Below, piece after piece: positions 25,817 to 59,725 of a stretch of 64,000 nt of DNA. This stretch comes from Gammaproteobacteria bacterium (GTDB lineage: Bacteria > Pseudomonadota > Gammaproteobacteria > HK1): assembly GCA_022826505.1 (NCBI GenBank), contig JAJDUQ010000177.1:1-64000 (forward strand), given 5' to 3'. The notes beneath the pieces are model-generated. The model did not search any database, was not told where the DNA came from, and was given only the letters and a program-made list of their open reading frames with translations. Positions within the stretch are counted from its first letter, which is position 1, and the number at the start of each line of letters is the position of its first letter. Made by a program: the position numbers and the translations under genes.

Positions 25817-26746
25817 ATGAAGATTCGAATACTGGGGTCCGGCGCGGGTGGCGGCTATCCCCAATGGAACTGCAACCATCCCAACAGCCGCCGGGCTCGT
25901 GACGGCGATCCGTCCGCGAAACCGAGGACGCAGTCCTCCATCGCGCTGAGTGCGGACGGTGTCGACTGGGTGCTGTTCAACGCTTCTCCGGACCTCCGTC
26001 AGCAGATTGGCGAGAACCCGTTCCTGCACCCCGGCGAAGGGTTGCGGCACAGCCCGATCAAGGCCGTGGTGCTGACCAACGCCGACGTCGATCACATCGC
26101 GGGGCTGCTCAACCTGCGCGAATCGCAGCCGCTGCGGCTCTATGCGACCGAGCGTGTCCTGTCGGTGCTCGCGGCGAACTCCGTGTTCAACGTGCTCAAC
26201 CCGGCGTTCGTTACCCGCGAGTCGATGCGCCTCGACGAACCGCTGTCGCTCGCCACGCCCGACGGCTCGCCGAGCGGAGTGGTCGTGGTGCCCTTTGCGG
26301 TGCCCGGCAAGGTCGCACTGTGGCTCGAGGACGAAAGCAGGGGACCGGACTTCGGCTCCGTCGAGGAAGACACGATAGCGCTCGAAGTGAGGGACGCCGG
26401 CGGCGCGACGAGGCTGTTCTACGTACCCGCCTGCGCCCGCATGACCGACGCACTGGCGACGCGTCTCGCCGGCGCCGAGGTCGTTCTGTTCGACGGCACC
26501 CTGTGGACCGACGACGAGATGATCCGCTCCGGTGTCGGCGTCAAGTCGGGGCGTCGGATGGGACACATGAGCATTTCGGGCCACGACGGCACGATGGCGG
26601 CATTCGCACCGCTCGGGGTCCGGCGCAAGGTCTTCATCCACATCAACACCACCAATCCGGTCTTGCTCGATGACAGCGAGGAACGACGAGCAGTGGCCGA
26701 ACAGGGCTGGGAAGTGGCGTACGACGGAATGGTGCTCGACGCATGA
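25817..26746 (+). CDS. pqqB: PQQ biosynthesis protein PqqB
   Basis: A 309-residue metallo-beta-lactamase-fold protein. It starts with MKIRILGSGAGGGYPQWNC, the family hallmark, and contains LTNADVDHIAGLLNLRE, where the Asp/His pair stands for the metal motif, and GRRMGHMSISGHDG. PqqB is thought to hydroxylate the tyrosine part of the PQQ precursor. It is separated from other pqq genes in orientation and converges on pqqE with only 72 bp between the stops. Its start appears to be used without a ribosome-binding site. Confidence 0.96.
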   Translation: MKIRILGSGAGGGYPQWNCNHPNSRRARDGDPSAKPRTQSSIALSADGVDWVLFNASPDLRQQIGENPFLHPGEGLRHSPIKAVVLTNADVDHIAGLLNLRESQPLRLYATERVLSVLAANSVFNVLNPAFVTRESMRLDEPLSLATPDGSPSGVVVVPFAVPGKVALWLEDESRGPDFGSVEEDTIALEVRDAGGATRLFYVPACARMTDALATRLAGAEVVLFDGTLWTDDEMIRSGVGVKSGRRMGHMSISGHDGTMAAFAPLGVRRKVFIHINTTNPVLLDDSEERRAVAEQGWEVAYDGMVLDA

Positions 26747-26818: not shown

Positions 26819-28003
26819 TCAGGAATGGATCGCCTTCGAGTTGCGGGGGTTGCGGAACAGCATCACCGGAATCTCGCCGCCCGCCGTACCGGGGGCGTCG
26901 TTGACCTCCGCCACGAGGTCGTCGATTCGGCCACGATCGGGGGAGAGGGCGCACACGGGGTCCGCGCTGTCCGGATCGCCGGTGACGAGCCAGGCCTGAC
27001 AGCGACAGCCACCAAAGTCCCGGTCGCGTTCCGGGCAGCTCCGGCAGGGCTCCTTCATCCACTCCGTGCCTCGGAACCGGTTGAATGCGGGGGATTCGTT
27101 CCAGATCCAGGCGATTGGATGGTCCGTCACCTTCGGAAAGTCCAGGCCGGGAAGCATTCGCGCCCCCTGGCAGGGCAGGGCGGTTCCGTCAGGCGCAACG
27201 CTCAGGAAGACGCGTCCCCAGCCGTTCATGCAGGGCTTGGGGCGATCGGCATAGTAATCCGGGATGACGTAGAGAATCCGCATGCGGTCGCCGTGCGTTT
27301 CCTTGTATCGGTTCGCGGTCTCCTCCGAGCGCCGGAGCTGGTCGCGAGTGGGAAGGAGCTCGCGGCGGTTGTGAAATGCCCATCCGTAGTACTGCGTGTT
27401 GGCGAGTTCCACGTAGTCCGCCCCCAGGCCCAGCGCCATGTCGAGGATTGCGTCCGTGCGGTCGATGTTGTGCCGGTGGAGCACGACGTTGAGGACCATG
27501 GGATACCCGTTCTCCTTCACCGCGCGCGCCATCTCGACCTTGTGGGCGAAGGCGTCGGTCCCCGCGAAGTGATTGGCGAGTTCCGCGTCGCTCGCCTGAA
27601 AGCTGATCTGGATGTGGTCGAGGCCCGCTTCCCGGAGCCGAACCACGCGAGCCGCGTCCATGCCGATGGCGGAGGTGATGAGGTTGGTGTAGTAGCCGAG
27701 CCCCCGCGCCTCGGCGACCAGCTCCTCCAGGTCTCGGCGCACGAGCGGTTCGCCGCCCGAGAAGCCGAGCTGTGCGGCGCCGAGCTGTCTCGCCTCACGC
27801 AGGACGTCGACCCACTGCCCGGTGGTCAGTTCGCGTTTCGTGCGAGCGAAGTCGAGGGGATTCGAGCAGTAGGGGCATTGGAGCGGACACGCGTACGTCA
27901 GCTCTGCCAGCAGCCACAGCGGCCTGGGCTGATTGTCGGGCAAGGTGCTGCCCCCGGTTCGGTCAGCGGGAGAAACGGCCCCGCGACTGGGGAACGGCTC
28001 CAC
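26819..28003 (-). CDS. pqqE: PQQ biosynthesis radical SAM enzyme PqqE
   Basis: A radical SAM/SPASM protein of 394 residues. The SAM cluster motif is C-PLQ-C-PY-C in AELTYACPLQCPYCSN, and the SPASM cysteines lie in LPCQGARML and CRSCPERDRDFGGCRC. PqqE, together with PqqD, links the Glu and Tyr of PqqA. The GTG at 28003 gives an unusual N-terminal extension; a TTG at 27943, preceded by GGGGG at good distance, would give LPDNQPRPLWLLAELTY, which is closer to the family. It follows pqqA by about 70 nt and is probably in the same transcript. Confidence 0.95.
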   Translation of the reverse strand: MEPFPSRGAVSPADRTGGSTLPDNQPRPLWLLAELTYACPLQCPYCSNPLDFARTKRELTTGQWVDVLREARQLGAAQLGFSGGEPLVRRDLEELVAEARGLGYYTNLITSAIGMDAARVVRLREAGLDHIQISFQASDAELANHFAGTDAFAHKVEMARAVKENGYPMVLNVVLHRHNIDRTDAILDMALGLGADYVELANTQYYGWAFHNRRELLPTRDQLRRSEETANRYKETHGDRMRILYVIPDYYADRPKPCMNGWGRVFLSVAPDGTALPCQGARMLPGLDFPKVTDHPIAWIWNESPAFNRFRGTEWMKEPCRSCPERDRDFGGCRCQAWLVTGDPDSADPVCALSPDRGRIDDLVAEVNDAPGTAGGEIPVMLFRNPRNSKAIHS

Positions 28004-28071: not shown

Positions 28072-28143
28072 TCAACGATTGCCGATGTACATCGTGATTT
28101 CGAAACCGAAACGCATTTCGGTGAAATCGGGCTTGGTCCACAT
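28072..28143 (-). CDS. pqqA: PQQ precursor peptide PqqA
   Basis: A 23-codon gene encoding a peptide that begins MWTKPDFTEMRFGF and ends EITMYIGNR. The Glu and Tyr that become PQQ are in the EITMY motif (E15 and Y19). The length and order match other PqqA peptides; the residue after Ile is Gly where many have Cys or Ala. GGAGGAAAGG lies just upstream of the ATG at 28143. pqqE is downstream on the same strand. A sigma-54-like promoter lies about 75 bp upstream. Confidence 0.97.
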   Translation of the reverse strand: MWTKPDFTEMRFGFEITMYIGNR

Positions 28144-28208
28144 GGTCCTTTCCTCCAGGACAATTGTTGAATCCAACTCATCTGTCGGCGCAGGATGCGT
28201 CGACGCCG

Positions 28209-28224
28209 GAATTGTGTGCAATTC
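28209..28224. promoter_or_regulatory. Inverted repeat overlapping the pqqA -12 region
   Basis: GAATTG-TGTG-CAATTC is a perfect 6-bp inverted repeat covering the -12 part of the predicted pqqA sigma-54 promoter. It could be an operator. Confidence 0.45.
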
Positions 28225-28233
28225 GTGCGCCAA
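28217..28233 (-). promoter_or_regulatory. Sigma-54-like promoter of pqqA-pqqE
   Basis: Read on the minus strand, TTGGCGCACGAATTGCA has the invariant GG and GC separated by exactly ten bases, matching the -24/-12 consensus with TTGC intact. Transcription would start near 28206, leaving about 60 nt of leader before pqqA. Confidence 0.65.
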
Positions 28234-28246
28234 CTCGGGAACGTGG

Positions 28247-28263
28247 TTGGCACGACATTTTCT
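28247..28263 (+). promoter_or_regulatory. Sigma-54-like promoter facing the kinase-regulator operon
   Basis: TTGGCACGACATTTTCT on the plus strand matches the sigma-54 consensus except for one base, the -12 G (T here). It is back to back with the pqqA promoter. The lost -12 G makes it weaker evidence. Confidence 0.45.
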
Positions 28264-28360
28264 CGGACAAGATTTTCAACAAGTTACGACGCCGTGAGCG
28301 CTTGTCCATCCGCCACCACCTGCCGATCCCGCCCCGGAACTGCTGAAATCGACCAAGTCG

Positions 28361-28380
28361 GCTGGTTGATATGAACCAGC
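28361..28380. promoter_or_regulatory. Inverted repeat placed like an NtrC-type enhancer
   Basis: GCTGGTT and AACCAGC are perfect 7-bp arms with a 6-bp spacer. The site lies about 155-175 bp upstream of the predicted pqqA transcription start, the usual distance for binding sites of sigma-54 activators. Confidence 0.55.
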
Positions 28381-28414
28381 ACCGCCCGAATCAGCGCCCA
28401 GTCCGCTTCGGCGC

Positions 28415-28420
28415 TACACT
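28415..28420 (+). promoter_or_regulatory. Possible -10 element of the kinase gene
   Basis: TACACT lies 37 bp upstream of the kinase ATG at 28458. No clear -35 element is visible. Confidence 0.35.
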
Positions 28421-28457
28421 GGGCGATGGCACTCGTTCACGGTCGTCATTGTCGCCG

Positions 28458-29927
28458 ATGCGCCGGATACTTCCGAAATCCCTGCAGGGGTTGCTTCTCC
28501 TCAACGAGTCCGCGCTGCTCGCGCTGGTCGTGGCGACGGCGACTCTGACCGGACTCTGGGCCCTGTTCTGGACCCAGTCCTCGCAGGAGGCGGCTCGCAT
28601 CGAAACCCTCGCGCGCCTTGCCGAACGTGTGCGGGGAGACATGTACCGCCAGGTTCAGGAGGTCATCCACGCCCGCCTCACGGAGGATCCCGCCGTACTG
28701 CGGGTGTACGCGGACTATCGACGCCAGATCACGGAACGCTTCGCGGAGTTGCACGAGCTCGTTCGAGACGAGAACGAACGCGCTGCCGTCGAGTATCTCC
28801 AGGATGCCTACACGGTGGTGCTCCACGACATGGAGAAGGTGTTCGCCGATCCGAACGAGATCTCGCAGGCCGCGCGCATGAAGCTTCTCGACCCTGCCTA
28901 CGAGGAATGGATGCTGAGCGAGCTGGAGAGTGCATTGCGGGTCATCGACGCGATCGTCGAGAGTCGCCGGCAGTCACTCGACGCCACGAGATCGGGCTGG
29001 ACGCGGTGGACTCCGATCGTGGTGCCGCTGTCGGTGGTGCTCGCGGTCGCGCTCCTGCTGTTCTCGCGGCGCAGCCTCCAGATGCGATTCGTCAAGCCGC
29101 TGCGAAATCTCGTCGACGGCACCATCGAGGTCAGCCGTGGCAATCTGGAGCACCGGATCCGCGCCGAGGGCGCCGAGGAGGTCAGGCACCTCGCCTCCAC
29201 GTTCGGCGAGATGACCCGCAAGCTCGCCGAGAGCCAGCGTACCCTGGTCGAGTCGGAGCGTCAGGCAGCCCTTGGCGCGCTGGTCCCGGTGGTCGCGCAC
29301 AACATCCGCAATCCGCTCGCCAGCATCCGGGCCACCGCCCAGATGATGGAAGGCTCGGAAACGGGCGAGGACCTGGAGGAGAGCCGACGGGCGATCATCG
29401 ACACCGTCGACCGTCTGGAACGATGGGTGACCGCGCTGCTGTCGTACCTGGTCCCGCTGGAGCCGCGCCGGCGCGAATGCCGACTCGGCGATGTCGTCGA
29501 GGGTGCCCTGGCGCCGCTCGAGCCGAAGCTGGAGCGCAAGGCGTTGCGGGTCGTGCGCGAGGGCTGGGAGCACGACGCGCCGCTTTCGGTCGACCCCGAC
29601 CTCCTGGAGCAGGCGATCCACGCGCTGCTCGGCAATGCGGTGGATGCATCGCCGGCACGCGCCGCGATCAGACTCGAGCTCGCTCGTTCCGGGCATGCTC
29701 TGGAGCTCCGGATCGACGACGAGGGCCCCGGAATTGCCTTCGAGCCCGACCCGCGAGAGCTCTCGCCGGGTCCCAGCACCAAGAGGGGGGGCTACGGGCT
29801 CGGGATTCCCGTGGCCTGGAAAATCTGCCACGCGCACGGCGGCAGGGTCGACGTTCGGCGCAGGACACAGGGCGGCACGCGAGCGACCGTTTCACTTCCG
29901 CTCCCGACGCCACCAGCCGGAGCGTGA
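28458..29927 (+). CDS. Sensor histidine kinase
   Basis: A 489-residue membrane sensor kinase. A first transmembrane helix lies near residues 13-35 and a second near 186-206, with a roughly 150-residue helical periplasmic sensor between them, then a HAMP domain. The phosphoacceptor is His in VVAHNIRNPLASIR. The ATPase boxes are GNAVDASP (N), DDEGPGI (G1) and GGYGLGIPVA (G2). It is of the NtrB/GlnL-like catalytic type paired with sigma-54 activators. The ATG at 28458 was chosen because the upstream codons look non-coding. It is directly followed by an NtrC-type regulator. Its place inside the pqq region suggests it senses methanol oxidation state or the cofactor supply; the signal is unknown. 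Confidence 0.9.
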   Translation: MRRILPKSLQGLLLLNESALLALVVATATLTGLWALFWTQSSQEAARIETLARLAERVRGDMYRQVQEVIHARLTEDPAVLRVYADYRRQITERFAELHELVRDENERAAVEYLQDAYTVVLHDMEKVFADPNEISQAARMKLLDPAYEEWMLSELESALRVIDAIVESRRQSLDATRSGWTRWTPIVVPLSVVLAVALLLFSRRSLQMRFVKPLRNLVDGTIEVSRGNLEHRIRAEGAEEVRHLASTFGEMTRKLAESQRTLVESERQAALGALVPVVAHNIRNPLASIRATAQMMEGSETGEDLEESRRAIIDTVDRLERWVTALLSYLVPLEPRRRECRLGDVVEGALAPLEPKLERKALRVVREGWEHDAPLSVDPDLLEQAIHALLGNAVDASPARAAIRLELARSGHALELRIDDEGPGIAFEPDPRELSPGPSTKRGGYGLGIPVAWKICHAHGGRVDVRRRTQGGTRATVSLPLPTPPAGA

Positions 29928-30011
29928 GGGTCGGTCGAGCGTGTGCCTACGGTTCCGACTCCGCAGACCGCCCGCCCGCGCGCTGCCGGTACCAATCTGA
30001 ACGAGGCGTTC

Positions 30012-31445
30012 ATGACGAATCGGCGATCCGAGGAATGCAGACAGCCGGAACGAACGCGGACCACGGTCCTCGTCGTCGACGACGAGGACGTGTTCGCGCG
30101 CGCGGTGGGCAGGAAGCTCGGCCGCAGCGGCGTGGCGAGCGTGCTGGCTCCGGATCTGGCGCAGGCGCGCAGCCAGCTTGCCCGCCGCAGGCCCGACCTC
30201 GTGCTGCTCGACATGCGCCTGCCGGACGGGTCGGGGCTCGATTTCCTGCGCGAGCTGCGTGCCGGTGACGATGCCGACGTTCCGGTACTGGTGCTGACCG
30301 CTTTCGGTGGGCTGCAGGATGCGGTCGCGGCGATGAAGGAGCGCGCTGACGACTATCTGACCAAGCCGGTCGACCTCGACGAGCTGATGGTCAAGATCGA
30401 GCGCGCTCTGGGCCAGGCGGAGCTGACCCGGAGGCTCGAGCTCTCGCGCCAGCGCGAGCTGCGGCCACACCAGGATGTCTCGCTGGTAGGGACGAGTGCC
30501 GCGACGAATGCGCTCAGATCGCAGATCGCCCGCATCCAGCAGCTCGCGGGTCAGGCTGGCGAAGCGCCGCCGACGGTGCTGATTCAGGGGGAGACCGGCA
30601 CCGGAAAGGACCTCGCGGCCCGTGCGCTCCACGACGGCAGCGACCGGGCCCGCCGCCCGTTCGTGCACCTCGACTGCGCGGCGCTGCCCAAGGACCTGAT
30701 CGAGGCGGAGCTGTTCGGACACGAGAAGGGTGCGTTCACCGATGCGCACACGGCGCGGACCGGACTCGTGGAGGCGGCCGAGGACGGCACCGTGTATCTG
30801 GACGAGATCGGAGAGCTGCCCCCGGGCCTCCAATCACGGCTGCTTGCAGTGCTCGAACGTCGCGAGGTGCGCCGCATAGGCAGCACCGAGCCCCGTCCTG
30901 TCGCGGCATGGTTCATCGCTGCGACCAACCGGGATCTGGACGAATTGGTGTCCGCGGGCGTCTTTCGTTCGGACCTTTACTTCCGGCTGAAGGTGCTCTC
31001 GCTGCACATCGTGCCGCTGCGCGAGCGCCTCGACGACCTGGAGCCGCTGTTCGAGCACTTCGCGTCCGTGACCGCGAGGCGCTACGGCATGCCGGCACCG
31101 ACGTTCTCGCCCGAGAGCCTGGAGACGGCTCGCCGCTACGGCTGGCCGGGCAACGTGCGGGAGCTCGCGCACATGGTCGAGCGCACGGTCCTGCTCGGTG
31201 CCGATCGCGTGCTCGACGCGTCGACGCTCGGGCTCGATGCGTCATCGTCCACCCCCTCCGATCCCGGAAAAGCCCTGGCCGGACTCACACTGGACGAGGC
31301 GGAGCGCCTGCTCATCGTGAACGCCTTGCGCGAAACGGGTGGCAATGTCTCCGAGTCCGCCAGACGGCTCGGCGTGACCCGCATGGTGCTGCGCTACCGC
31401 ATCCAGAAGCTCGGGCTCGACCCCAGGCACACGCGGCCCGACTAG
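30012..31445 (+). CDS. NtrC-family sigma-54-dependent response regulator
   Basis: A 477-residue regulator with three domains. The receiver has DDED and the phospho-acceptor Asp in LLDMRLPDGSG, plus TKPVD. The central AAA+ domain has Walker A GETGTGKD, the sigma-54 contact loop GAFTDA, and YLDEIGELP. The C-terminal helix-turn-helix is SESARRLGVTRMVLRYRIQ, a Fis type. It lies downstream of its kinase. A GTG start at 29943 is possible and would add 23 residues. It is the obvious candidate to act at the sigma-54-like promoters between pqqA and the kinase, and the M16 peptidase follows within 30 bp. Confidence 0.93.
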   Translation: MTNRRSEECRQPERTRTTVLVVDDEDVFARAVGRKLGRSGVASVLAPDLAQARSQLARRRPDLVLLDMRLPDGSGLDFLRELRAGDDADVPVLVLTAFGGLQDAVAAMKERADDYLTKPVDLDELMVKIERALGQAELTRRLELSRQRELRPHQDVSLVGTSAATNALRSQIARIQQLAGQAGEAPPTVLIQGETGTGKDLAARALHDGSDRARRPFVHLDCAALPKDLIEAELFGHEKGAFTDAHTARTGLVEAAEDGTVYLDEIGELPPGLQSRLLAVLERREVRRIGSTEPRPVAAWFIAATNRDLDELVSAGVFRSDLYFRLKVLSLHIVPLRERLDDLEPLFEHFASVTARRYGMPAPTFSPESLETARRYGWPGNVRELAHMVERTVLLGADRVLDASTLGLDASSSTPSDPGKALAGLTLDEAERLLIVNALRETGGNVSESARRLGVTRMVLRYRIQKLGLDPRHTRPD

Positions 31446-31471
31446 CCTTCGCTCCGAGGATGCCGATATCC

Positions 31472-34400
31472 ATGTCCGCCCGCCCGCCGCCCGCCCCACC
31501 GCGCTTCGAACGACAACAACGCGTGCAAATTGCCGCGGTCGACGGGGAGTTCACGCAGCACCTCCACTATCCGACCGGCGCGAGGCACATTCACCTCGAG
31601 GCACCGTTCGAGGACAGCGCCTTCCTGATGGCGTTCCTCACCCCGGCTCCCGATTCACGTGGCCTCACCCATGTCCTCGAGCATCTGGTGATGTGCGGCA
31701 GCGAGCGGTTTCCCTGCCGGCGCGCGTTCTTCGCGATGCTCGGTCGCACGCTGAGCACGACCATGAACGCGGTGACCACGCAAGACTGCACGACGTTCCA
31801 CTTCGCCACCAGGAATCTCGCCGACTACGAGAACCTGCTCTCGGTCTACGTCGACGCTGCCTTCTTTCCGCGCCTCGAACGGCTCGACTTCGACCAGGAA
31901 GGATGGCGTGTCGAGATCGCCTCCGAGGACGGGGAAGGGACGGTGCCGGTGCGGCGCGGCGTGGTGCTGAGCGAGATGCGGGGCCTGATGAGCGACCCCG
32001 AACGCCAGCTCGGACAGGCGTTGAATCGCTGTCTGTTTCCGTCTGCTCCGTATCGGTTCAATGCCGGAGGTGATCCCCGGGCGATTCCGGATCTCGATCA
32101 CGAGACGCTGAAGGCCTACCACCGCAACCACTACCACCCCGCCAATGTGGTGTTCCTGAGCGCCGGACCTCTGCGCCCCGAGTGGCTGCACGCGCGATTG
32201 CAGGACCTCGCGCTGACACCGTGGTCGTCCCGGGTCCCCGGTGCCGTGCCTCGTGCGCAGTGGTTGGAACCGCCACCGCTCGAGGCGCCGACCCGATCCG
32301 TCGTTCGTTACCCGGTGCTCGGTACCCGCGACCGGGCGCTTTCGCACGCGGGCGTGGCGATGGGGTGGCGGCTCGGGGGGGCCTCGCAGCCGATGGAGGT
32401 CGCACGCGCGCACTTTCTTGCGCGCTGCCTGCTGGCGCAGGACGATGCGCCGATTCGCCGGGCGTTGCTGGAGGCGTCCGGCGGCTCGGCGCCGGCGTTC
32501 GAGTTGGACGCGGTGCAGGCGACCCACCCGCAGTTGGTGTTTCGGTGCGGGGTCCAGGGGTGCGATCCCGAACGCGCAGAGGAGATCGAGGGACGGGTGA
32601 CTGCCGCAATCGACGCGGTGGTGCGTGACGGAATCGCCCCGTCGATCGTGGACGGCGCGTTCGCCCACATCGAGCGCGAGCAGCGCGAGCGCCACGATCC
32701 ACGCTTCCCGTTTCCGCTCAAGCTCCTCACCCGCATGCTCCCCGCCGCGCTCTACGGTGGAGCGCCGGCGAGCGCACTCGACGCCCCGGCCGCACTCGCC
32801 GCGCTGCACGAGGACCTCCGTTCGCGTGGCGGGGTTGCGGAGCTCGTGCGGTGGTGCCTGCGCGACAATCCGAATCGGGTTCTCGTGACTGCGGTGCCGG
32901 ACCCCGCGGCCGGCCGTCGCTTCGATTCCGAAGACCGCGAATCGCTCGTGCACGCCTACGGACCGGCGCATCCGGAGGCGCGCCGGCGAGTCGTGGAACG
33001 CTCTCGCGCGTTGCGCCGCCGCCAGGGATCCTCCGCCGGGGAGGAGTCGTTGCCGTGGCTCGGTATCGACGAGGTCGGACCCGCGCGCGATCGCCCGGAG
33101 CTCGTCGCACTGTCCGTTGGCGGTGCGTCCTCGCCGGCTCGCGTTCGGCAAACGGTGACGGCGACGGCCGGGACCGGGTCACCACCCGGCAACGGGAAGC
33201 GCCGACGCGTACAAGCGGGTGGCGACGAGTCGGCACCGGAGAGCGCATCGTTCGCCGGGGCGGTGGGCGGCCCGCACGTCTGGCTCAGTCGTGGCCCTGT
33301 GGGAGGGTTGGTCTACGCACGTCTGGCCATCGACATTCCCGATTTCGATATCGGGCAACTCGACGACGTCGGGCTGTTGGCAGAGCTGCTGCCGCAGTAT
33401 GGCCACGGCCGTCTTCGGCCCGACGAGACCAGGGCGCGCCTCGCGCGGTACTGCGATCGCCTCGCGGTCGAACCCTGGATGCTGGCTCGCGCCATTTCCG
33501 GACCGGATGCACGCGGTGGGGGAGATCCCCGTCCCGTGCTGCTGCTCTCGGCAAGGACGCAGGCGGTCGACGAGGATGTGCTGCTGAAGGTGCTGGCGGA
33601 CGCACGTGCCGGCTCCCGATTCGATGAAAGCGCACGCACGGCTGCCGCGAAGGCCCGCGCGCGACGCCTGGGCGATCTGGTGCGCTACGGTCATCTCCAA
33701 GCCGAGCGGGTCGCCGCGGCGCGACTCGATGCCTGGGCGGCGGTTGCCGATCGATGGCACGGTCCGAGCGCGCTGGCGGTGCTGGCGCGGGCGGCCGAGG
33801 ACGCGACCGAAGGAGAGGGGCTCGCCGAACGTCTGCTGCGGGTGCACCAGGCACTCGCGAGCGCGCCGTACCAGGTCCAGATAGTCCGTGATCGCGAGGA
33901 GCGTTCCAACGCGGAGTCGGGCCGTACGCGATCCGGCGCAGTTGGGCGTCATCCGGCCCCGGCCATTCGTGGCGGGCCTTGCGCATGGAGTGCGGTGCAT
34001 GGGGTCGCGCCCGAAAGCCACGGCTCCCCGCCTCCCGCGCGTATCGCGCCGTGCCGTGCCTCGGCAACTGCGGCGTGGGTCGTGGAGGGGCCGGTCAACT
34101 ACTGCGCCATGGTCTTCCCCGCCGTGGATGCGGAGCATCCGGACGCGGGGCCCCTTGCGGTACTCGCCGCGTTTCTGGGAGGCGAACTCCTGCAACGCAC
34201 GGTACGAGAGCACGGCGGCGCCTACGGGGCGGGGGCGCGTTACTGCGAGCGGTCCTGCACGGTGCGGATGTTCTCCTACCGTGACCCGCGTCTGGCGGAG
34301 ACGCTCGGAGATTTCCACGGCGCGCTGGAGGCGTTGCGCCGGCAACCGCCGGAGGGTCGGAGACTCGAGAATGCCGTCCTGCGAACGATTCGCGAGATCG

Positions 34401-34636
34401 ACCGGGCGAAGGCATTCCAGGTCCATGCCCTGGAGCGGTTTCTCGACGAGCTGCAGGGCCGGGGTCGCACCGGAGAGCCGTCGCTGCGAACCTCGGTGCT
34501 TGGAGTCGACCCCGAGCGGCTGCGCGATGTCGCGGGACGTTACCTGTCACCCGAACAGGGAGCCGTCGGCGTCCTCGCCGGGACCGGGAGCGAGGCGGAG
34601 CTGGAGCGGCTCGAACTGCCCTGGCGTCGCCCATGA
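31472..34636 (+). CDS. M16 zinc metallopeptidase, candidate PqqA-processing protease
   Basis: A 1054-residue M16 protein of the PreP/M16C type. The inverted zinc motif is HVLEH in GLTHVLEHLVMCGS near residue 55-59, with the distal Glu expected near SEMRGL. An M16 C-terminal domain follows (LGGASQPME, AYHRNHYHPANVVF). Several low-complexity linkers occur around 33.2 and 33.9 kb. In other bacteria PqqA is cut by M16 proteases (PqqF, or PqqF/PqqG), so its place between pqqA and pqqD makes a PqqF role likely. The start at 31472 was chosen because GAGGA lies 11 nt upstream; an ATG at 31460 is too close to that site. It is on the transcript of the two-component system. Confidence 0.82.
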   Translation: MSARPPPAPPRFERQQRVQIAAVDGEFTQHLHYPTGARHIHLEAPFEDSAFLMAFLTPAPDSRGLTHVLEHLVMCGSERFPCRRAFFAMLGRTLSTTMNAVTTQDCTTFHFATRNLADYENLLSVYVDAAFFPRLERLDFDQEGWRVEIASEDGEGTVPVRRGVVLSEMRGLMSDPERQLGQALNRCLFPSAPYRFNAGGDPRAIPDLDHETLKAYHRNHYHPANVVFLSAGPLRPEWLHARLQDLALTPWSSRVPGAVPRAQWLEPPPLEAPTRSVVRYPVLGTRDRALSHAGVAMGWRLGGASQPMEVARAHFLARCLLAQDDAPIRRALLEASGGSAPAFELDAVQATHPQLVFRCGVQGCDPERAEEIEGRVTAAIDAVVRDGIAPSIVDGAFAHIEREQRERHDPRFPFPLKLLTRMLPAALYGGAPASALDAPAALAALHEDLRSRGGVAELVRWCLRDNPNRVLVTAVPDPAAGRRFDSEDRESLVHAYGPAHPEARRRVVERSRALRRRQGSSAGEESLPWLGIDEVGPARDRPELVALSVGGASSPARVRQTVTATAGTGSPPGNGKRRRVQAGGDESAPESASFAGAVGGPHVWLSRGPVGGLVYARLAIDIPDFDIGQLDDVGLLAELLPQYGHGRLRPDETRARLARYCDRLAVEPWMLARAISGPDARGGGDPRPVLLLSARTQAVDEDVLLKVLADARAGSRFDESARTAAAKARARRLGDLVRYGHLQAERVAAARLDAWAAVADRWHGPSALAVLARAAEDATEGEGLAERLLRVHQALASAPYQVQIVRDREERSNAESGRTRSGAVGRHPAPAIRGGPCAWSAVHGVAPESHGSPPPARIAPCRASATAAWVVEGPVNYCAMVFPAVDAEHPDAGPLAVLAAFLGGELLQRTVREHGGAYGAGARYCERSCTVRMFSYRDPRLAETLGDFHGALEALRRQPPEGRRLENAVLRTIREIDRAKAFQVHALERFLDELQGRGRTGEPSLRTSVLGVDPERLRDVAGRYLSPEQGAVGVLAGTGSEAELERLELPWRRP

Positions 34637-35832: not shown

Positions 35833-36624
35833 TCAGTCGGGCACGAACGCGCCGGGCGGCGTGATGCGCGGATCGACGTATGCGAAGTGGAGCGCGTCGA
35901 GCTGCGCCCACAGCACGTCGGTCTTGAACACGAGCGCCTTGCAGACCGTCTCGCGCAGCTCCGGGCTGGTCGCGTGGCGCTTCACGTAGTCGAGCGCGAA
36001 GTCCGCGTCGCGCGGCGCCTGGGTGAGGCGGGCGGTGAAGTAGGCGAGGGTGTCTTCGTCCACGAATTCGTAGCGGGCGAGCATCGCGCTGGTGCGCTCG
36101 CCGATGATCGCGGGTGCGAACAGCTCCGTGAGCGAGGACGCGATGGCTTCCAGCAGCGGGCGGTCGCGCACGAAGTGGACGTAGGCGTCGACCGCGAACC
36201 GGGTGGCCGGGAGCACCCCGTCCTCGGCCAGAACCCGCTCGCGCGGCAGTCCGAGCCGCTCGCACAGGTGCAGCCACTTCGCGAGGCCACCCCGTCCCTC
36301 CCGGGTGCCGTCGTGGTCGATGACCCGTTGCGACCATTCGCGGCGCAGATCCGCATCGACGATACGCGACATCAGCGCGGAGTCCTTGATGGGGATCCGG
36401 CTCTGGTAATAGAAGCGATTGAGCGCCCACGCCTGGAGCTGTCCGCGCGTGAGGACACCGTCGCGCATGAGCTTGTGGAAGGGATGGTTGTCGTGGTAGC
36501 GCTCGGCCCCGATCACGCGAAGCCGTGCCTCCAGCTCCTCGCCGGAGCCCAGCCCGGCGAACCTCCCGGTCCGGATGACGGAGGGCGTGCCGGACTCGCG
36601 GTCGGCTGGGGCTCTGACTTCCAT
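35833..36624 (-). CDS. pqqC: PQQ synthase PqqC
   Basis: A 263-residue PqqC, the oxidase that closes the rings in the last step of PQQ synthesis. It has YHDNHPFHKLMRDG, QAWALNRFYYQSRIPIKDSALM and DHDGTREGRGGLAKW, which carry the conserved active-site residues of this heme-oxygenase-like fold. The C-terminal region includes LYVDPR-like FAYVDPRITPPG. It is transcribed away from the downstream ABC importer; the shared 131-bp region holds both promoters. Confidence 0.96.
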   Translation of the reverse strand: MEVRAPADRESGTPSVIRTGRFAGLGSGEELEARLRVIGAERYHDNHPFHKLMRDGVLTRGQLQAWALNRFYYQSRIPIKDSALMSRIVDADLRREWSQRVIDHDGTREGRGGLAKWLHLCERLGLPRERVLAEDGVLPATRFAVDAYVHFVRDRPLLEAIASSLTELFAPAIIGERTSAMLARYEFVDEDTLAYFTARLTQAPRDADFALDYVKRHATSPELRETVCKALVFKTDVLWAQLDALHFAYVDPRITPPGAFVPD

Positions 36625-40210: not shown

Positions 40211-40504
40211 GATTGGCGCAACTTTCGTGTAATTTGCTGCGCAGCATCATCGAATGCGTCTCGAGGGGACAGGAAGCCGCAGGAACACCCGGTGTCACTG
40301 CGTGAGGACGCACGGGGAGGATGCGTCAACGGGGACTGCGGCCCGGCCGGCGGAAAACGGCCCTCGCGGGGAGGCCGATCCGAACGTGGATTCGCACCTC
40401 GCGCCGGAGTGCCCTGGCCCGGTCCGCCCCACCTCTCGCTCGGCGTTCACGAGCGTGCCCGGCGGCAGAGGGCGAGCACGCAAGCAACCGTGGAGGAGAA
40501 CCGC
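40211..40504. other. Intergenic region before the beta-propeller gene
   Basis: 294 bp. It holds a short palindrome GCTGCGCAGC (40231-40240). TTGGCGCAACTTTCG near 40212 recalls a -24 element, but its -12 GC is absent. GGAGGAG is the ribosome-binding site at the right end. Confidence 0.45.
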
Positions 40505-41641
40505 ATGAAGAACACGAACATCTCGTTCCTGGCCGCCGCGGCCGTGGGCATGCTGGCCATGGCGTCCGCAACCCAGGCCGCCGGCACCGGCTACCTGTTC
40601 GTCAGCAGCGAGAAGGACCATGCGATCACCGTGCTCGACGGCAAGACGTACCAGGTGGTCAAGCAAATCCGGACCGCCGCGCGTCCTCGCCACCTCGCGT
40701 TCAACCCCGACCGCAGCCGGCTCTACGCCGCGTGCGGCGAGGGGAACGCGATCGACATCATCGACGTCGCCGCGCTCGAGCTGGTCGACCGCATCGGTCC
40801 CATCGAGGACCCGGAGGCGTTCGACTTCAGCCCCGACGGCGAGACCATGTACATCTCGCTCGAGGACGACGCGCAGCTCGGAATATTGAACCTGCGCACC
40901 TACTTCGAGGGCCGGGAAGAGAAGCCGGAGCTGACCGTGGCGGAGGTCTCCGCAACCGACGACGATGATGATGATGACGACGAGGAGGAGGAGGAAGAGG
41001 ACGAGGAGGAAGGCGACGACGAAGAGGGCGAGGACGACAACGGCGAGACCATTCCCGGAATGAGCACGGTCGACGTCGGCGAGGAGCCCGAGGGAATTCT
41101 GGTGAACCGCGACGGATCGTTGGTGTTCGTGACCTCCGAGGTCGCCAACATGGTCCACGTCATCGATACCGCCACCTCCGAGATCCGCGCCAACATCGTG
41201 GCCGGCAACCGCCCGCGCCGCTTTGCCGTCCCTGCCGGCGGAAACACGCTATGGGTGACCAACGAGCTCTCCGGCTCGGTGAGCCTCATCGACCTCGGTA
41301 CGATGGAGGTGAGCGGCACCGTCGAGTTCAAGCCGAAAGGCTTTCGTCCCGAGGAGGTGACACCGGTCGGCATCACCACGACCGGCGACGGCAAGACCGC
41401 GTTCGTGGCAATGGGGCGCGCCAACCACGTGGCGGTGGTGGACGTCGCGTCGCTCGACGTGGAGGACTACATCCTGGTCGGCAGCCGCGCCTGGAACACC
41501 ACGCTCAACCGTGACGAGTCGCTGCTGTTCGTGGCCAACGGCCTGAGCGACGACGTTTCGGTAATCGACGTGGCGAAGCGACGGGTCATCAAGTCGGTGC
41601 CGGTGGGACGCGTGCCCTATGCGGTGCTCATCGATGATTGA
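40505..41641 (+). CDS. PQQ-dehydrogenase-associated beta-propeller protein with acidic insertion
   Basis: A 378-residue exported seven-bladed propeller of the YVTN type, in the PQQ-dependent-catabolism beta-propeller family. A signal peptide (FLAAAAVGMLAMASATQAA) leads the protein. Repeated blade ends such as RDESLLFVANGLSDDVSVIDV are clear. Between blades, residues about 152-177 form an almost uninterrupted run of Asp and Glu (about 24 of 26). I do not recall a run of this length in the family and regard it as an oddity. The next gene overlaps by 8 nt. The role of the propeller is unknown, but it is part of the periplasmic quinoprotein apparatus. Confidence 0.9.
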   Translation: MKNTNISFLAAAAVGMLAMASATQAAGTGYLFVSSEKDHAITVLDGKTYQVVKQIRTAARPRHLAFNPDRSRLYAACGEGNAIDIIDVAALELVDRIGPIEDPEAFDFSPDGETMYISLEDDAQLGILNLRTYFEGREEKPELTVAEVSATDDDDDDDDEEEEEEDEEEGDDEEGEDDNGETIPGMSTVDVGEEPEGILVNRDGSLVFVTSEVANMVHVIDTATSEIRANIVAGNRPRRFAVPAGGNTLWVTNELSGSVSLIDLGTMEVSGTVEFKPKGFRPEEVTPVGITTTGDGKTAFVAMGRANHVAVVDVASLDVEDYILVGSRAWNTTLNRDESLLFVANGLSDDVSVIDVAKRRVIKSVPVGRVPYAVLIDD

Positions 41642-42833
41642 GGGCGCGGTGCGCCACGGGCTGATATCCGCGCTCGTCTTCGCTGTCGTTCTGGGCGCCT
41701 GTGCACCCTCGTCGGAGGCGGCGCCGAAGGAGCTGGTCATCGGCTACGTCGCGCTCAAGAAGGATCCGCGATACGCCACCAAGCGAACGTTTGCGCGCTA
41801 CCTCACGGAGGCACTGGGGTCTCCCTATCCGGGAGCCAGGGTCGCGATCGACGAGTCGCGATTCGCGGGCTCGACCGTCGGAGTCGAGTTCAAGCTCAAG
41901 CGACGCCGGGCGAAGAGCCCGGCGAGGCTGCCCAGGTCCGCGCTCGCGTTCGCCGATGCCGGCGTGAACTACCTGCTCGTCGATGCGCCGGCGGAGCTCG
42001 TGGACGAGGTGGCCCGCGCCACGAAGGGCCGGGACGTCCTGGTGTTCAACGTTTCGGCACGCGACGACGTGCTGCGCCAGGAACAGTGCCAGTCCCATTT
42101 GCTGCACGTCATTCCGAGCCACGCGATGATGGCGGACGCACTGGCCCAGTACCTGATCTCGAAGAAGTGGCGTGAGGCGCTGGTGCTGACCGGCCCCGAA
42201 TCCGAGGACGAGCAGCTCGCCGCGGCGTTCGGTCGGTCCGCGAAGCGATTCGGCATCAGGATAGTCGAGCAGCGTCCGTTCGTGCTCAGCAACGATCCGC
42301 GAGAGCGGGAAAAGAACAACGTGGCGTTGCTGACGGCGGGTGCCGACTACGACGTCGTGTTCGTCGCCGATACCGATGGCGAGTTCGCCCGCGACGTCCC
42401 TTTTCAGACGGTACAGCCGCGGCCCGTGGTCGGTTCGGAGGGCCTGGCCGCCGCCGCCTGGCACTGGGCGTGGGAGCGCCACGGTGCCCCACAGCTCGAG
42501 AAGCGCTTCCAGAAGAGGGCCAAGCGTCCCATGCGCGATCAGGACTGGGCGGCGTGGATGGCGGTGAAGGGTGTGGTCGAGGCGGTGCTGCGCACCGAGG
42601 GCGGAGACTTCGCGGCCGTGCGCGACTATCTCCTGGGCGACGAGGTCGTGCTGGACGGATTCAAGGGCAACCGACTGAACTTCAGGCCGTGGAACCGGCA
42701 GTTGCGTCAGCCCGTCCTGCTCGTCACCCACAACTGGGTGGTGGATCGCGCGCCGTTGCGCGGATACCTGCACGCGACGAACAACCTGGACACGCTCGGT
42801 TTCGACGAACGGGACACCCGGTGCGAGTTGTGA
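41634..42833 (+). CDS. PQQ-dehydrogenase-system ABC binding-type protein (lipoprotein)
   Basis: A 399-residue protein of the periplasmic-binding-fold family linked to PQQ-dependent alcohol dehydrogenases. The N-terminus has a lipobox (VVLGAC at residues about 19-24), so it is probably membrane-anchored. Domain text such as FNVSARDDVLRQEQCQSHLLHVIPSH and a Leu-Ile-Val-binding-like layout (AWMAVKGVVEAVLRT) are typical. Its ATG overlaps the propeller stop. It presumably works with the ATPase at 39443 and the permease at 42899. Confidence 0.88.
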   Translation: MIEGAVRHGLISALVFAVVLGACAPSSEAAPKELVIGYVALKKDPRYATKRTFARYLTEALGSPYPGARVAIDESRFAGSTVGVEFKLKRRRAKSPARLPRSALAFADAGVNYLLVDAPAELVDEVARATKGRDVLVFNVSARDDVLRQEQCQSHLLHVIPSHAMMADALAQYLISKKWREALVLTGPESEDEQLAAAFGRSAKRFGIRIVEQRPFVLSNDPREREKNNVALLTAGADYDVVFVADTDGEFARDVPFQTVQPRPVVGSEGLAAAAWHWAWERHGAPQLEKRFQKRAKRPMRDQDWAAWMAVKGVVEAVLRTEGGDFAAVRDYLLGDEVVLDGFKGNRLNFRPWNRQLRQPVLLVTHNWVVDRAPLRGYLHATNNLDTLGFDERDTRCEL

Positions 42834-42898
42834 GTGCAGTGCAGGTTCCGGCGGTGGGTCCGACGGTCGTCCGCCGTCGTCCCTGAAGTGGCATCGAG

Positions 42899-43708
42899 AT
42901 GACGCCTTCTCACGCCGCCCGTGCCCTGGTCGCCGTGAGCGGGCGCGAGATGTTCAAGTTCTGGCGCCAGCGCGGGCGACTGTTCTCCGCCCTGGTCCGC
43001 CCCACGCTGTGGCTCGTGGTGTTCGCGGTGGGGTTCCAGAACGTCTTCGGGGTCTCGATCATCCCTCCCTACGAGACCTACATCGAGTACCAGGAGTACA
43101 TCGTGCCGGGACTGGTCAGCATGGTGCTGCTCTTCAACGGGATGCAGTCCTCGCTGGCGATGGTCTATGACCGCGAGATGGGAATGATGCGGCTGTTGCT
43201 CACCGCACCGCTGCCGCGCTGGTACCTGCTCTTCAGCAAGCTGGTGGCGGGCACGGTGCTCTCGGTGCTTCAGGTGTACGCCTTTCTGATCGTCACCGTG
43301 CTGTTCGGCGTGCACGTCCCGCTGCTCGGCTGGCTCTATGCGCTGCCGGCCATCGCGCTCGGAGGGATGATGCTCGGCGCCACGGGCCTGCTTCTGTCGG
43401 TCTACATCAAGCAGCTCGAAAACTTCGCGGGGACGATGAACTTCGTCATCTTTCCCATGTTCTTCATCTCCTCCGCCCTGTATCCGCTGTGGAAGCTGCG
43501 CGAGGCGGGGGCGGAGGCGGTGTTCCAGGCCGCTCGGTTCAACCCGTTCACCTACGTGGTGGAGTCGGTGCGGTTCTCGCTCTACGGGGAGCCCAACCTG
43601 CTCGCGTTCGGTGTCGTGGCGGCGACGCTTGCGGTGGTGTTCGTGCTCGCGGTGATCGGATACGACCCGCAACGAGGGCTGGTGAGGAGGATGCGGCGAC
43701 CCGGTTGA
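42899..43708 (+). CDS. ABC-2 type permease of the PQQ-dehydrogenase system
   Basis: A 269-residue ABC-2 permease (MLVSR/CcmB-like type), with six hydrophobic segments, YIVPGLVSMVLLFNGMQSSLAMVYDREMG and the C-terminal FNPFTYVVESVRF. This is the permease usually found with the dehydrogenase-linked ATPase and binding-type protein. An exporter or maturation role is expected from the fold, but the cargo is unknown. Confidence 0.9.
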   Translation: MTPSHAARALVAVSGREMFKFWRQRGRLFSALVRPTLWLVVFAVGFQNVFGVSIIPPYETYIEYQEYIVPGLVSMVLLFNGMQSSLAMVYDREMGMMRLLLTAPLPRWYLLFSKLVAGTVLSVLQVYAFLIVTVLFGVHVPLLGWLYALPAIALGGMMLGATGLLLSVYIKQLENFAGTMNFVIFPMFFISSALYPLWKLREAGAEAVFQAARFNPFTYVVESVRFSLYGEPNLLAFGVVAATLAVVFVLAVIGYDPQRGLVRRMRRPG

Positions 43709-47993: not shown

Positions 47994-49811
47994 ATGACAC
48001 CAAGAAAACTGCTGATGTTCATAGCTTCCATGACGCTGGGCGCGGCAGTGGCGGTGCCGGGCGTCGTCTCCGGCAACAGCGAAGTGATGGCGCTGTCGCA
48101 GAATGCCGACAACTGGGTCATGTGGGGCAGGACCTACGACGGACAGCGCTACAGCCCGCTCAATGAAATCAACAAGGACAACGTCGGGAATTTGCAGGTC
48201 GCGTGGACCTTCTCGACCGGTGTCCTGCGCGGACACGAGGGCGGGCCGCTGGTCATCGGCGACACCATGTGGATACACACCCCGTTCCCGAACAAGGTGT
48301 TCTCCATCAACCTCGCCGACCAGAGCATCAACTGGAGCTACGTGCCGAAGCAGGATGCGGCAGCCACGGTGCCGGTGATGTGCTGCGACACCGTCTACCG
48401 CGGCCTGGCCTACGCCGACGGAAAGATCTTCCTGCAGCAGGCGGATACGACGCTGGTGGCGCTCGACGCGAATACCGGCGAGAAGCTCTGGTCGACGGTG
48501 AACGGCGATCCCACGAAGGGTTCGACCAACACGAACGCGCCCATCGTGGTCGGCGACAAGGTCTACACCGGTATCAGCGGTGGCGAGTTCGGTGTCCGCG
48601 GGTTCCTGGCCGCCTACAACATCAACGACGGCAGCCTGGTGTGGAAGGCCTACAGCACCGGTCCCGACGACGAGATGCTGGTCGATCCCGAGAACACCAT
48701 GTCGATGGGCAAGCCGGTCGGCAAGGACTCGAGCCTCAACACCTGGAAGGGCGACCAGTGGAAGATCGGCGGCGGAACCACCTGGGGCTGGTACACCTAC
48801 GATCCGGAGCTGAACCTGATCTATTACGGCACCGGCAATCCCAGCACCTGGAATCCTGTCGTTCGTCCGGGTGACAACAAGTGGTCGATGACCCTCTTCG
48901 CGCGCGATGCGGACACCGGAATGGCCAAGTGGGCCTACCAGATGACGCCGCACGACGAGTGGGACTATGACGGCATCAACGAGAACATCCTTGCCGATAT
49001 CGAGGTCAACGGCGAGATGCGCAAGGTTCTGGTTCACTTCGACCGCAACGGCTTCGGTTACACGCTGGATCGCGTGACCGGCGAGCTGCTGGTGGCGGAG
49101 AAGTACGACCCGGCGACCAACTGGGCGACCCACGTCGACATGGAGACCGGACGGCCGTCCGTGGTGGCGCGATACAGCACCCGCTGGCACGGCGAGGACG
49201 TCAACACCACGAACGTGTGTCCGGCGGCTCTAGGCAGCAAGGATCAGCAGCCTGCCGCGTTCTCGCCCGACACCGGGCTGTTCTACGTGCCCACCAACCA
49301 CGTGTGCATGGACTACGAGCCGTTCTACGTGGAGTACGTGGCGGGCCAGCCCTACGTGGGTGCCACCCTGAGCATGTTCCCGGCCGGGCGCGTGTTGGGT
49401 GACGGCACCGACAACCTGGGCAACTTCATCGCCTGGGACGCGGCGAAGGGCGAGATCGTGTGGTCGATTCCCGAGCCGTTCTCGGTGTGGAGCGGTGCGC
49501 TGGCGACCGGCGGTGGCGTGGTGTTCTACGGCACCCTCGAGGGTTACCTCGTGGCGGTGGATGCCAACACCGGCGATGAGCTGTACAGGTTCAAGACCCC
49601 GTCCGGCATCATCGGCAACGTGAACACCTGGATGCACGACGGCAAGCAGTACATCGGAATCCTGTCCGGCATCGGCGGCTGGGCCGGCATCGGTATGGCC
49701 GCGGGCCTCGAAGGCGACACGGACGGCCTTGGTGCCGTGGGTGCGTACAGGGGCCTGAGCAAGCACACTCAGCTCGGCGGCGTTCTGACCATCTTCGCCC
49801 TGCCGGGCTGA
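47994..49811 (+). CDS. xoxF: Lanthanide-dependent PQQ methanol dehydrogenase
   Basis: A 605-residue quinoprotein with a signal peptide to about residue 26 and eight-bladed propeller text throughout. PQQ-linked vicinal cysteines are C130-C131. The catalytic Asp is D324 in HDEWDYDG, and D326 two residues later is the extra Asp that marks XoxF; calcium MxaF enzymes have Ala there. The predicted reaction is methanol to formaldehyde or formate, with electrons to XoxG. AGGAGGG is an excellent ribosome-binding site. A strong terminator follows. No mxaF or mxaI is present in the window. Confidence 0.97.
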
Positions 49812-49867
49812 ATGCTCGACCGGCAACCCGGGGCCGCTCCGGCCACCGGGAGCCGGATACATTTCTG

Positions 49868-49906
49868 ACCGGCTGCGGCGCTTCCGTGCCGTAGCCGGTT
49901 TCTTGT
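49868..49906 (+). terminator. Intrinsic terminator after xoxF
   Basis: A 12-bp stem (49868-49879 with 49888-49899, one G-U) with an 8-nt loop is followed by TTTCTTGT. It lies 57 bp after the xoxF stop and 80 bp before xoxG, so it would lower read-through into xoxG and xoxJ. Confidence 0.85.
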
Positions 49907-49985
49907 ATGGCGTGCGTCCGGGGACGGATGTCCGGCGCGACGGTCCGCATCTCCTCAACGTCGTTCCAAGGAGGACCTTCCCAAA

Positions 49986-50435
49986 GTGCACCGGAAAATT
50001 CAGACAACACTCGCGAGGTGGACCGTGGCCGCCGTCGTCTGCGCCTTCGGCGGACTCGCGGCGCCCGCCGTCGTGGCCGAGGAGCCGTACGATGGCCATA
50101 TCCAATGCGAGACGGAGGGTGATCCGAAGACCTGCAGGATCGACCTCTGGTTGACTCGGGGCTACCGGGCATTCAGCCAGTGTCAGGTCTGCCATGGGCT
50201 CGACGGAACCGGCAGCACCATCGGTCCGAGCCTCCTCGAGAAGCTCGGAGGCGAAATCGGCCGGGCGCGGTTCATGGAAGTCGTCGCCAATGGCTACCAG
50301 GGTCAGATCGGGGTCATGCCTCCCTGGAAGGAGAATCCCAACGTCATGAGGTATGTCGATCAGCTATACGCCTACCTGAAGGCCCGGGCGGACAAGGTGC
50401 TGCCCGCGGGCAAGATCAAGCGGTACGATCGATGA
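49986..50435 (+). CDS. xoxG: Cytochrome c electron acceptor of XoxF
   Basis: A 149-residue exported cytochrome c. The signal peptide ends near VVAEE, the haem site is C66-QV-C69-H70, and the axial Met is likely M111 in VMPPWKENP. The location between xoxF and xoxJ, and the size, fit XoxG, which takes electrons from XoxF. Two further cysteines (C41 and C50) may form a disulfide. The start is a GTG at 49986, preceded by AAGGAGG-like sequence. Confidence 0.88.
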   Translation: MHRKIQTTLARWTVAAVVCAFGGLAAPAVVAEEPYDGHIQCETEGDPKTCRIDLWLTRGYRAFSQCQVCHGLDGTGSTIGPSLLEKLGGEIGRARFMEVVANGYQGQIGVMPPWKENPNVMRYVDQLYAYLKARADKVLPAGKIKRYDR

Positions 50436-50466
50436 ACCGCCCGACACCTTCGATGGAGGTTGGCCT

Positions 50467-51315
50467 ATGACTGCCGCGAGACAGCTCGGAGTCGCCCTTG
50501 CAGCGGTGGCCGCCATCGCCGTGTCCGCAGGTGCCGTCGCGGCCGAGCGCACCGCCTTCAAGGTCTGCGCCGATCCTCACTACCTTCCGTGGTCCAACCA
50601 GGCGGGCGAAGGATACGAGAATCGAATCGCTGCGGTTCTGGCCGACGCACTGAATCTTCCGGTCGAATACACTTGGTTCCCGCAGCGCATGGGCTTCATT
50701 CGCAATACCCTCCGGTCCCGGGGGCCCGACGGCGAGTACAAGTGCGACGTGGTCATGGGACTGCCGACCGGATTCGAGCTGGCAATCACGACGGAACCCT
50801 ACTACCACTCGACCTACTCCCTGGTGTACGTCAAGGGACGTGGATTGGACGACGTTCAGTCGGCCGAGGACCTCGTGGCCCTCGATCCCACGCGGCGCGA
50901 CAAGATCCGGTTTGGCATCGCCGAGCGCAACCCCGGCACTGTCTGGCTGGCCAAGCACGGGATGCTCGACCAGATCGAGATTGCGTACGCGTCGCAACAC
51001 GGAAACCCGGAGGTGCAACCAGGTCAGCTCGAACAGGAAGATCTCCTCGCGGACAAGATCGACGCCACTGTCATGTGGGGTCCCATTGCCGGTTATTTCG
51101 CCCGCAGCAACCCCGACGTCCCGGTCGCGGTCGTCCCGATGGCCTCGGAGCCGGGTGTTCGCTTGCACTTCGGGATTTCCGCCGGGGTCCGGTTCGGACA
51201 GAAGGAACAGAAGGAGGAACTCCAGAAGTTGCTGGACGAGCACGCGGAATCAATCGTCGCCATCCTGCGCGAACATGGGGTTCCTCTCGTGAATGCGGAC
51301 GGCGCCCTGCCCTGA
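50467..51315 (+). CDS. xoxJ: Periplasmic binding-protein-like XoxJ
   Basis: A 282-residue exported protein of the MxaJ/XoxJ group, with FKVCADPHYLPWSNQAGEGYENRIA and MGLPTGFELAITTEPYYHSTYSLVYV. XoxJ is thought to help activate or assemble XoxF. TGGAGGTTGG lies before the ATG. It is 31 bp after xoxG and convergent with mxaL. Confidence 0.93.
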   Translation: MTAARQLGVALAAVAAIAVSAGAVAAERTAFKVCADPHYLPWSNQAGEGYENRIAAVLADALNLPVEYTWFPQRMGFIRNTLRSRGPDGEYKCDVVMGLPTGFELAITTEPYYHSTYSLVYVKGRGLDDVQSAEDLVALDPTRRDKIRFGIAERNPGTVWLAKHGMLDQIEIAYASQHGNPEVQPGQLEQEDLLADKIDATVMWGPIAGYFARSNPDVPVAVVPMASEPGVRLHFGISAGVRFGQKEQKEELQKLLDEHAESIVAILREHGVPLVNADGALP

Positions 51316-58747: not shown

Positions 58748-58805
58748 ATGGAGGTATCGTCCCGGTGGCGTCGTCCTGCCGGGCGCGCAGAAAGTGAGGG
58801 ATCCC

Positions 58806-59708: not shown

Positions 59709-59725
59709 ACCGGTTCGGCGTTCGC

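Follow-up and report, generated by a model that had tools for sequence, protein, structure and literature searches.

A tandem enhancer and -24/-12 site conserved between pqqA and an NtrC-type two-component system: a putative dedicated switch for PQQ synthesis in gammaproteobacteria

Systems of the NtrC family combine a membrane kinase with a -24/-12 promoter that has a tandem palindromic enhancer upstream, and at glnA/glnL a single set of NtrC sites serves both to activate a sigma-54 promoter and to influence a sigma-70 promoter belonging to the gene cluster of the regulator itself. To our knowledge, how the decision to synthesise PQQ is taken is poorly understood except in Pseudomonas and a handful of methylotrophs. 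In the ped system of Pseudomonas, the regulators AgmR and PedS2-PedR2 tie PQQ synthesis to alcohol oxidation, AgmR being an activator of pqqFABCDE; the sections of the source cited here list CbrB as a sigma-54-dependent response regulator and describe no sigma-54 promoter of pqq (PMC12997753). In the CbrAB/Crc system of P. aeruginosa, CbrB affects pqqA transcripts, which rise in the cbrB mutant, an effect that the authors judge to be mostly indirect (PMC3480352). In Burkholderia, an insect-associated region brings together PQQ genes, a histidine kinase, a response regulator and a Fis-family regulator that depends on sigma-54; we liken it to the present locus by description only, as the cited part of that account gives no promoter or control of pqqA and calls pqqA a fragment (PMC9088363). 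In the literature searched, we found no description of the pqqA control system considered below.

The window analysed here is a stretch of 64,000 nucleotides from a Gammaproteobacteria bacterium (contig JAJDUQ010000177.1, positions 1 to 64,000). In it, pqqA (28072-28143, minus strand) encodes the 23-aa PQQ precursor peptide (PF08042, E 2.1e-12; TIGR02107, 47.2 bits against a cut-off of 20) and is preceded by GGAGGAAAGG (28147-28156, minus), its ribosome-binding site as judged from the consensus. The pqqE gene lies directly downstream (26819-28003, minus; TIGR02109, 540 bits, cut-off 381), and pqqB (25820-26746, plus; TIGR02108, 398 bits) converges on pqqE, so that the pqq genes do not form a single operon but are split. 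Divergent from pqqA are the genes of a sensor histidine kinase (28458-29927, plus) and a response regulator (30012-31445, plus). We consider it very probable, from comparison of sequences, that the intergenic region between pqqA and the kinase gene acts as the regulatory region of a dedicated PQQ switch, consisting of the kinase, the regulator, a tandem enhancer, a sigma-54 promoter and pqqA. Behind the regulator, at about 31450-34636 (plus), is an M16/PreP-like peptidase gene; M16 proteases are used in PQQ maturation, and the peptidase may thus belong to the system.

Pfam assigns HAMP, HisKA and HATPase domains to the kinase, whose hydrophobic segments, judged by eye, flank a periplasmic four-helix bundle (pLDDT of the sensor model 84). 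Bundles of this type are very common, and the sensor therefore gives no pointer to the signal. As homology of the kinase begins at about 28458, within an open reading frame readable from 28371, the inverted repeat discussed below is taken to lie outside the kinase gene. In the regulator (Pfam applied to the frame 29943-31445), the receiver (PF00072), the sigma-54 AAA+ domain (PF00158) and the Fis-type HTH (PF02954) all score over their cut-offs; by its domains it is a sigma-54 enhancer-binding response regulator of the NtrC type, belonging to an ordinary NtrC-family system. It shares these three domains with the regulators of NtrBC, AtoSC and ZraSR, and the locus as a whole shares with those systems the membrane kinase and the tandem palindromic enhancer upstream of a -24/-12 site. 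It differs from them in its target, pqqA, in its sigma-54 contact loop, and in reaching no NCBIfam equivalog cut-off among the best 25 of 107 matches (AtoC 359.8 bits against 714, NtrC 351.1 against 558.6, ZraR 318.7 against 760). The loop reads GAFTDA, as the first-pass annotation had pointed out, and not GAFTGA. Beside the kinases of relatives at 80 loci, 67 loop motifs were found (GAFTNA 33, GAFTSA 23, GAFTHA 7, GAFTTA 2, GAFTDA 1 and GAFTGA 1); 66 of the 67 are thus of the form GAFT(N/S/H/T/D)A, with GAFTNA, GAFTSA and GAFTHA making up 63, and at the remaining 13 of the 80 loci, some of them incomplete, no loop motif was found. The genome encodes rpoN.

Reading from the kinase toward pqqA, the order of elements is a TGGTTN6AACCA palindrome, a second copy of it, a -24/-12 site and the ATG. 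The first copy, UAS1 (core TGGTTGATATGAACCA, 28363-28378, no strand), lies within the perfect 7-6-7 repeat GCTGGTT-GATATG-AACCAGC at 28361-28380; it is one of four perfect sites in the 6.2-Mb assembly (none in the reversed control) and its matrix score, 26.3, exceeds those of all 51 others. UAS2 (28340-28355, minus), a degenerate second copy with the sequence TGGTCGATTTCAGCAG, stands 23 bp from UAS1 and was missed by the first-pass annotation; it scores 6.7 with a matrix built from other loci, which themselves range from 4.0 to 22.5, and is better than chance at +22/23 (P 0.0006, single-base shuffling). The site facing pqqA, TTGGCGCACGAATTGCA (28217-28233, minus), has GG and GC ten bases apart and begins 122 bp from UAS2, in the 122-123 range at which relatives cluster; with a score of 11.0 it is among the weakest, below 49 of 50 others.

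Taken alone, the window's elements are weak evidence. Of 20,000 shuffled versions of the 320-bp region that keep its dinucleotides, 3% contain some 7-6-7 repeat, 38% a 7-bp repeat with a spacer of 0-20, and 3% a GG+GC site facing pqqA at up to three mismatches; the specific TGGTTN6AACCA appears in 0.005%, its consensus having been learned from the window and its relatives. The whole window has six -24/-12 matches at up to two mismatches against 4.1 expected, which is near chance, so likeness to a promoter proves nothing by itself and conservation has to decide.

With the window's own genome counted, 5 of 55 relatives and 31 of the 369 genomes examined from the class have the kinase, and a further set was made of 80 kinase loci, the best 80 of 220. 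In 36 of these 80, pqqA is divergent from the kinase within 600 bp, as it is at 13 of 31 loci of a separately examined set that includes the window; of the 44 loci where no pqqA lies nearby, four (L056, L074, L095, L108) have less than 600 bp upstream of the kinase, so a pqqA there may have been cut off. Two of the records, L080 and L100, hold the kinase locus under the title of a Klebsiella pneumoniae MAG, and these labels look wrong. The listed kinases are 36-48% identical to that of the window, the exceptions being a same-genus relative (80%) and a fragment (58%), and at such distances neutral intergenic DNA should be randomised. At 37 non-redundant linked loci (collapsed at 75% identity across the final 150 nt) the repeat is present at up to one mismatch in 35, the pqqA-facing site, with its GG and at most three mismatches, in 31, both together at 80-200 bp in 29, and the pair of repeats in 29; the corresponding fractions in shuffles that keep dinucleotides are 0.015, 0.035, 0 and 0. 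The window and L003-L006 supplied the consensus of the repeat, and four of the 37 loci (L003, L007, L014, L022) represent that discovery set. The conserved form of the promoter-like site is YTGGCAYG...TGC, 39-122 bp from the ATG; the same-genus relative has GTGGCACGGTAATTGCT at the equivalent place, and the site is found there in others too.

The spacing of the elements is regular. Leaving out L125, L126, L127 and L130, the pair stands at 21-23 bp in 51 of 56 regions (22 bp in 39, 23 in 10 and 21 in 2), the matrix being made without the window and L003; the distance from the start of the second copy to the -24/-12 site is 78-137 bp in 49 of 50 regions measured, with one outlier at 260. Such paired palindromes at helical spacing upstream of the -24/-12 site are the arrangement expected of an enhancer.

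These elements also accompany pqqA where the kinase lies elsewhere, which the first-pass annotation had not noticed. Thirty-one genomes have a kinase that is not beside pqqA, and pqqA was found in 28 of them; across the 30 loci examined, 23 of the 28 genomes have the repeat, at up to one mismatch, upstream of their pqqA. A cultured example is Methylohalomonas lacus HMT 1, which has the kinase (L037), the regulator and, at its pqqA (L120), the motif. After redundancy removal, 25 such regions have the repeat in 21, the promoter-like site in 18, both at the proper spacing in 18 and the pair in 18, against fractions of 0.011, 0.075, 0.0004 and 0 in dinucleotide-preserving shuffles. The five misses (L125, L126, L127, L129, L130) belong to Methylobacillus (two), Pseudomethylobacillus, Methylotenera and one uncultured proteobacterium, and beside their kinases no regulator motif was found. 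When 26 genomes were searched with a strict tandem pattern, it occurred at seven distinct places in six genomes, all of them, by their coordinates, about 170-220 bp from a pqqA match, with none in the reversed control; at five of the seven, pqqA was translated in place on the searched strand, and the coordinates put the other two on the opposite strand. The window has no strict match because the pattern is too strict for its degenerate UAS2. At 19 additional pqqA loci from kinase-positive genomes the repeat is present in 14, the misses being L183 (two mismatches), L177 (from genome G136) and L185-L187 (from G175). Several genomes carry many copies of pqqA (seven in G409, six in G406, five in G410 and nine in G175), of which some were examined; those few copies are without the repeat.

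The kinase and pqqA occur together. Across the 369 genomes pqqA is found in 51, namely in 30 of 31 that are kinase-positive and 21 of 338 that are kinase-negative (Fisher P 3e-29), and the single kinase-positive genome without it is 78% complete. Within the window's genus, G002 has both the kinase and pqqA, and G001, G003 and G004 have neither. A genome was taken as kinase-positive at E <=1e-80 on the basis of four scored candidates each, a rule that may have misclassified G346 and G293, both of them congeners of positive genomes. The first of these is the one genome among the 21 kinase-negative ones that has the repeat, at up to one mismatch, at pqqA; G009, a further, same-family kinase-negative genome, has a pqqA-like gene without it.

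A real pair of sites and a real sigma-54 promoter could also be served by a different enhancer-binding protein, the two-component system being linked to pqqA for other reasons. In keeping with this, some kinase-negative genomes, among them G041, G317 and G356 (loci L155, L170 and L172), lack the repeat at pqqA but show a -24/-12-like site there, so that other sigma-54 activators of pqqA may exist. The repeat nevertheless tracks the kinase, being seen in 1 of 21 kinase-negative genomes, whereas kinase-positive cases have it in 23 of 28 when unlinked and in 35 of 37 when linked; linkage is kept among kinases that are mostly 38-48% identical to that of the window; and a copy of the repeat stands beside kinase genes unlinked to pqqA (L037, L066, L072, L079, L082), as well as beside the L062 kinase, in whose assembly pqqA was not found. 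We therefore regard another activator as very improbable, and the neighbouring NtrC-type system, which had been put forward from the window's sequence, as the likely activator on the grounds of conservation and co-occurrence.

The kinase side of the region is organised differently. It had been proposed that a second sigma-54 promoter, TTGGCACGACATTTTCT (28247-28263, plus), faces the kinase, and if so the system would switch on pqqA and its own operon together. This look-alike has one mismatch, its -12 GC having become TC, and a matrix score (11.1) as high as that of the pqqA-facing site; matches of this quality, with GG and at most one mismatch on either strand, arise in 0.13% of dinucleotide shuffles, and such a site in 0.1-1% of shuffles overall. 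We rejected it as a conserved promoter: the -12 G is lost, it is absent from the same-genus L003, and kinase-facing matches at up to three mismatches are present at 5 of 37 loci, window included, against about 1 expected, while the pqqA-facing site is present at 31. What recurs on the kinase side is a sigma-70-type -10 box, TATA(A/C)T, 21-34 nt from the start of UAS1 at 22 of 35 loci (0.4 expected), and the same box stands beside the unlinked kinases listed above, that of L062 among them; shuffles for the kinase side, the matrix and the -10 box keep base composition only. A pair of divergent sigma-54 promoters is accordingly very unlikely.

In the window the candidate -10 of the kinase operon is TACACT (28415-28420, plus), a weak box that is also present in L003 and lies further from the repeat than in relatives. 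In many of those relatives, UAS1 covers the place of the kinase -35 box, which makes it probable that the regulator acts on its own operon as well; we infer that the kinase operon has a sigma-70 promoter under the control of the regulator itself, which probably represses it. This is reminiscent of NtrC autoregulation at glnA/glnL, where one set of sites likewise bears on promoters of both sigma classes, with the difference that here the sigma-70 promoter would be divergent and would drive the kinase, the overlap being seen in relatives and the window's -10 lying further away. The position of UAS1 also suits a reading in which pqqA is repressed by the regulator, or in which autoregulation of the kinase operon is all that the sites are for, with pqqA expressed from an unnoticed sigma-70 promoter. 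Two observations make this very unlikely: the -24/-12 site recurs at a regular distance from the pair, and the motifs go with pqqA even where the kinase gene lies elsewhere.

Our preferred reading, a PQQ switch acting through sigma-54, would work as follows. The membrane kinase would phosphorylate the regulator, which would bind the tandem palindromic sites at 28363-28378 and 28340-28355, loop over about 120 bp and remodel sigma-54 RNA polymerase at 28217-28233, which would turn on transcription of pqqA and, probably, of pqqE; transcription of the kinase operon would run the opposite way from its sigma-70-type promoter. Several observations weigh against this reading: the low score of the window's -24/-12 site, matched by that of the kinase-facing look-alike; the degenerate UAS2; the loop, which is GAFTDA rather than GAFTGA; the six of 37 linked loci that lack a -24/-12 site at the threshold and the two that lack the repeat; and the kinase homologues of the five unlinked misses, of G136 and of G175, in whose genomes the pqqA copies examined lack the repeat. 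Whereas the conservation and spacing of the elements, their co-occurrence with the kinase and their association with pqqA can be read off the genomes compared, regulator binding, phosphotransfer, activation and autoregulation are what we would predict from them. To this extent the first-pass proposals of a sigma-54-like promoter facing pqqA, and of an enhancer-like repeat at the right distance from it, each found at the positions given above, are borne out by their conservation at linked and unlinked loci alike.

The contig also carries a methylotrophy/PQQ island (35833-36624, 40292-43708, 47994-51315, 58794-60703 and 63522-64000), with a TENA/PQQC-family gene, a PQQ-associated beta-propeller gene (TIGR03866) followed by periplasmic-binding-like and ABC-2 genes, a methanol/ethanol-family PQQ dehydrogenase with a DYD motif, which we take to be a lanthanide-type signature, and MoxJ-like, FhcD-like, beta-RFAP synthase and Fae genes. 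Of these, the PQQ alcohol dehydrogenase, the MoxJ-like protein, beta-RFAP synthase and Fae score over their cut-offs, and the FhcD-like gene and a methanol-related cytochrome fall below theirs. With the PQQ dehydrogenase and C1 genes on the contig, methanol, lanthanide or PQQ demand would each be a plausible signal at most, and the PQQ switch may report on methanol oxidation.

We rate the whole as a further system of the known NtrC type with a new probable target, pqqA. More speculatively, and with considerable doubt, it might represent an undescribed regulon whose main or only detectable target is pqqA, keyed to PQQ-dependent alcohol oxidation through methanol, lanthanide or PQQ status, in which one palindrome would be both enhancer of pqqA and operator over the regulator's own sigma-70 -35 box, giving a built-in negative feedback, and in which the loop would have been altered to GAFTxA family-wide. 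The putative switch offers a regulator, a DNA site and a promoter through which control of PQQ synthesis could be tested, and its motif would mark PQQ control in the genomes of many uncultured gammaproteobacteria.
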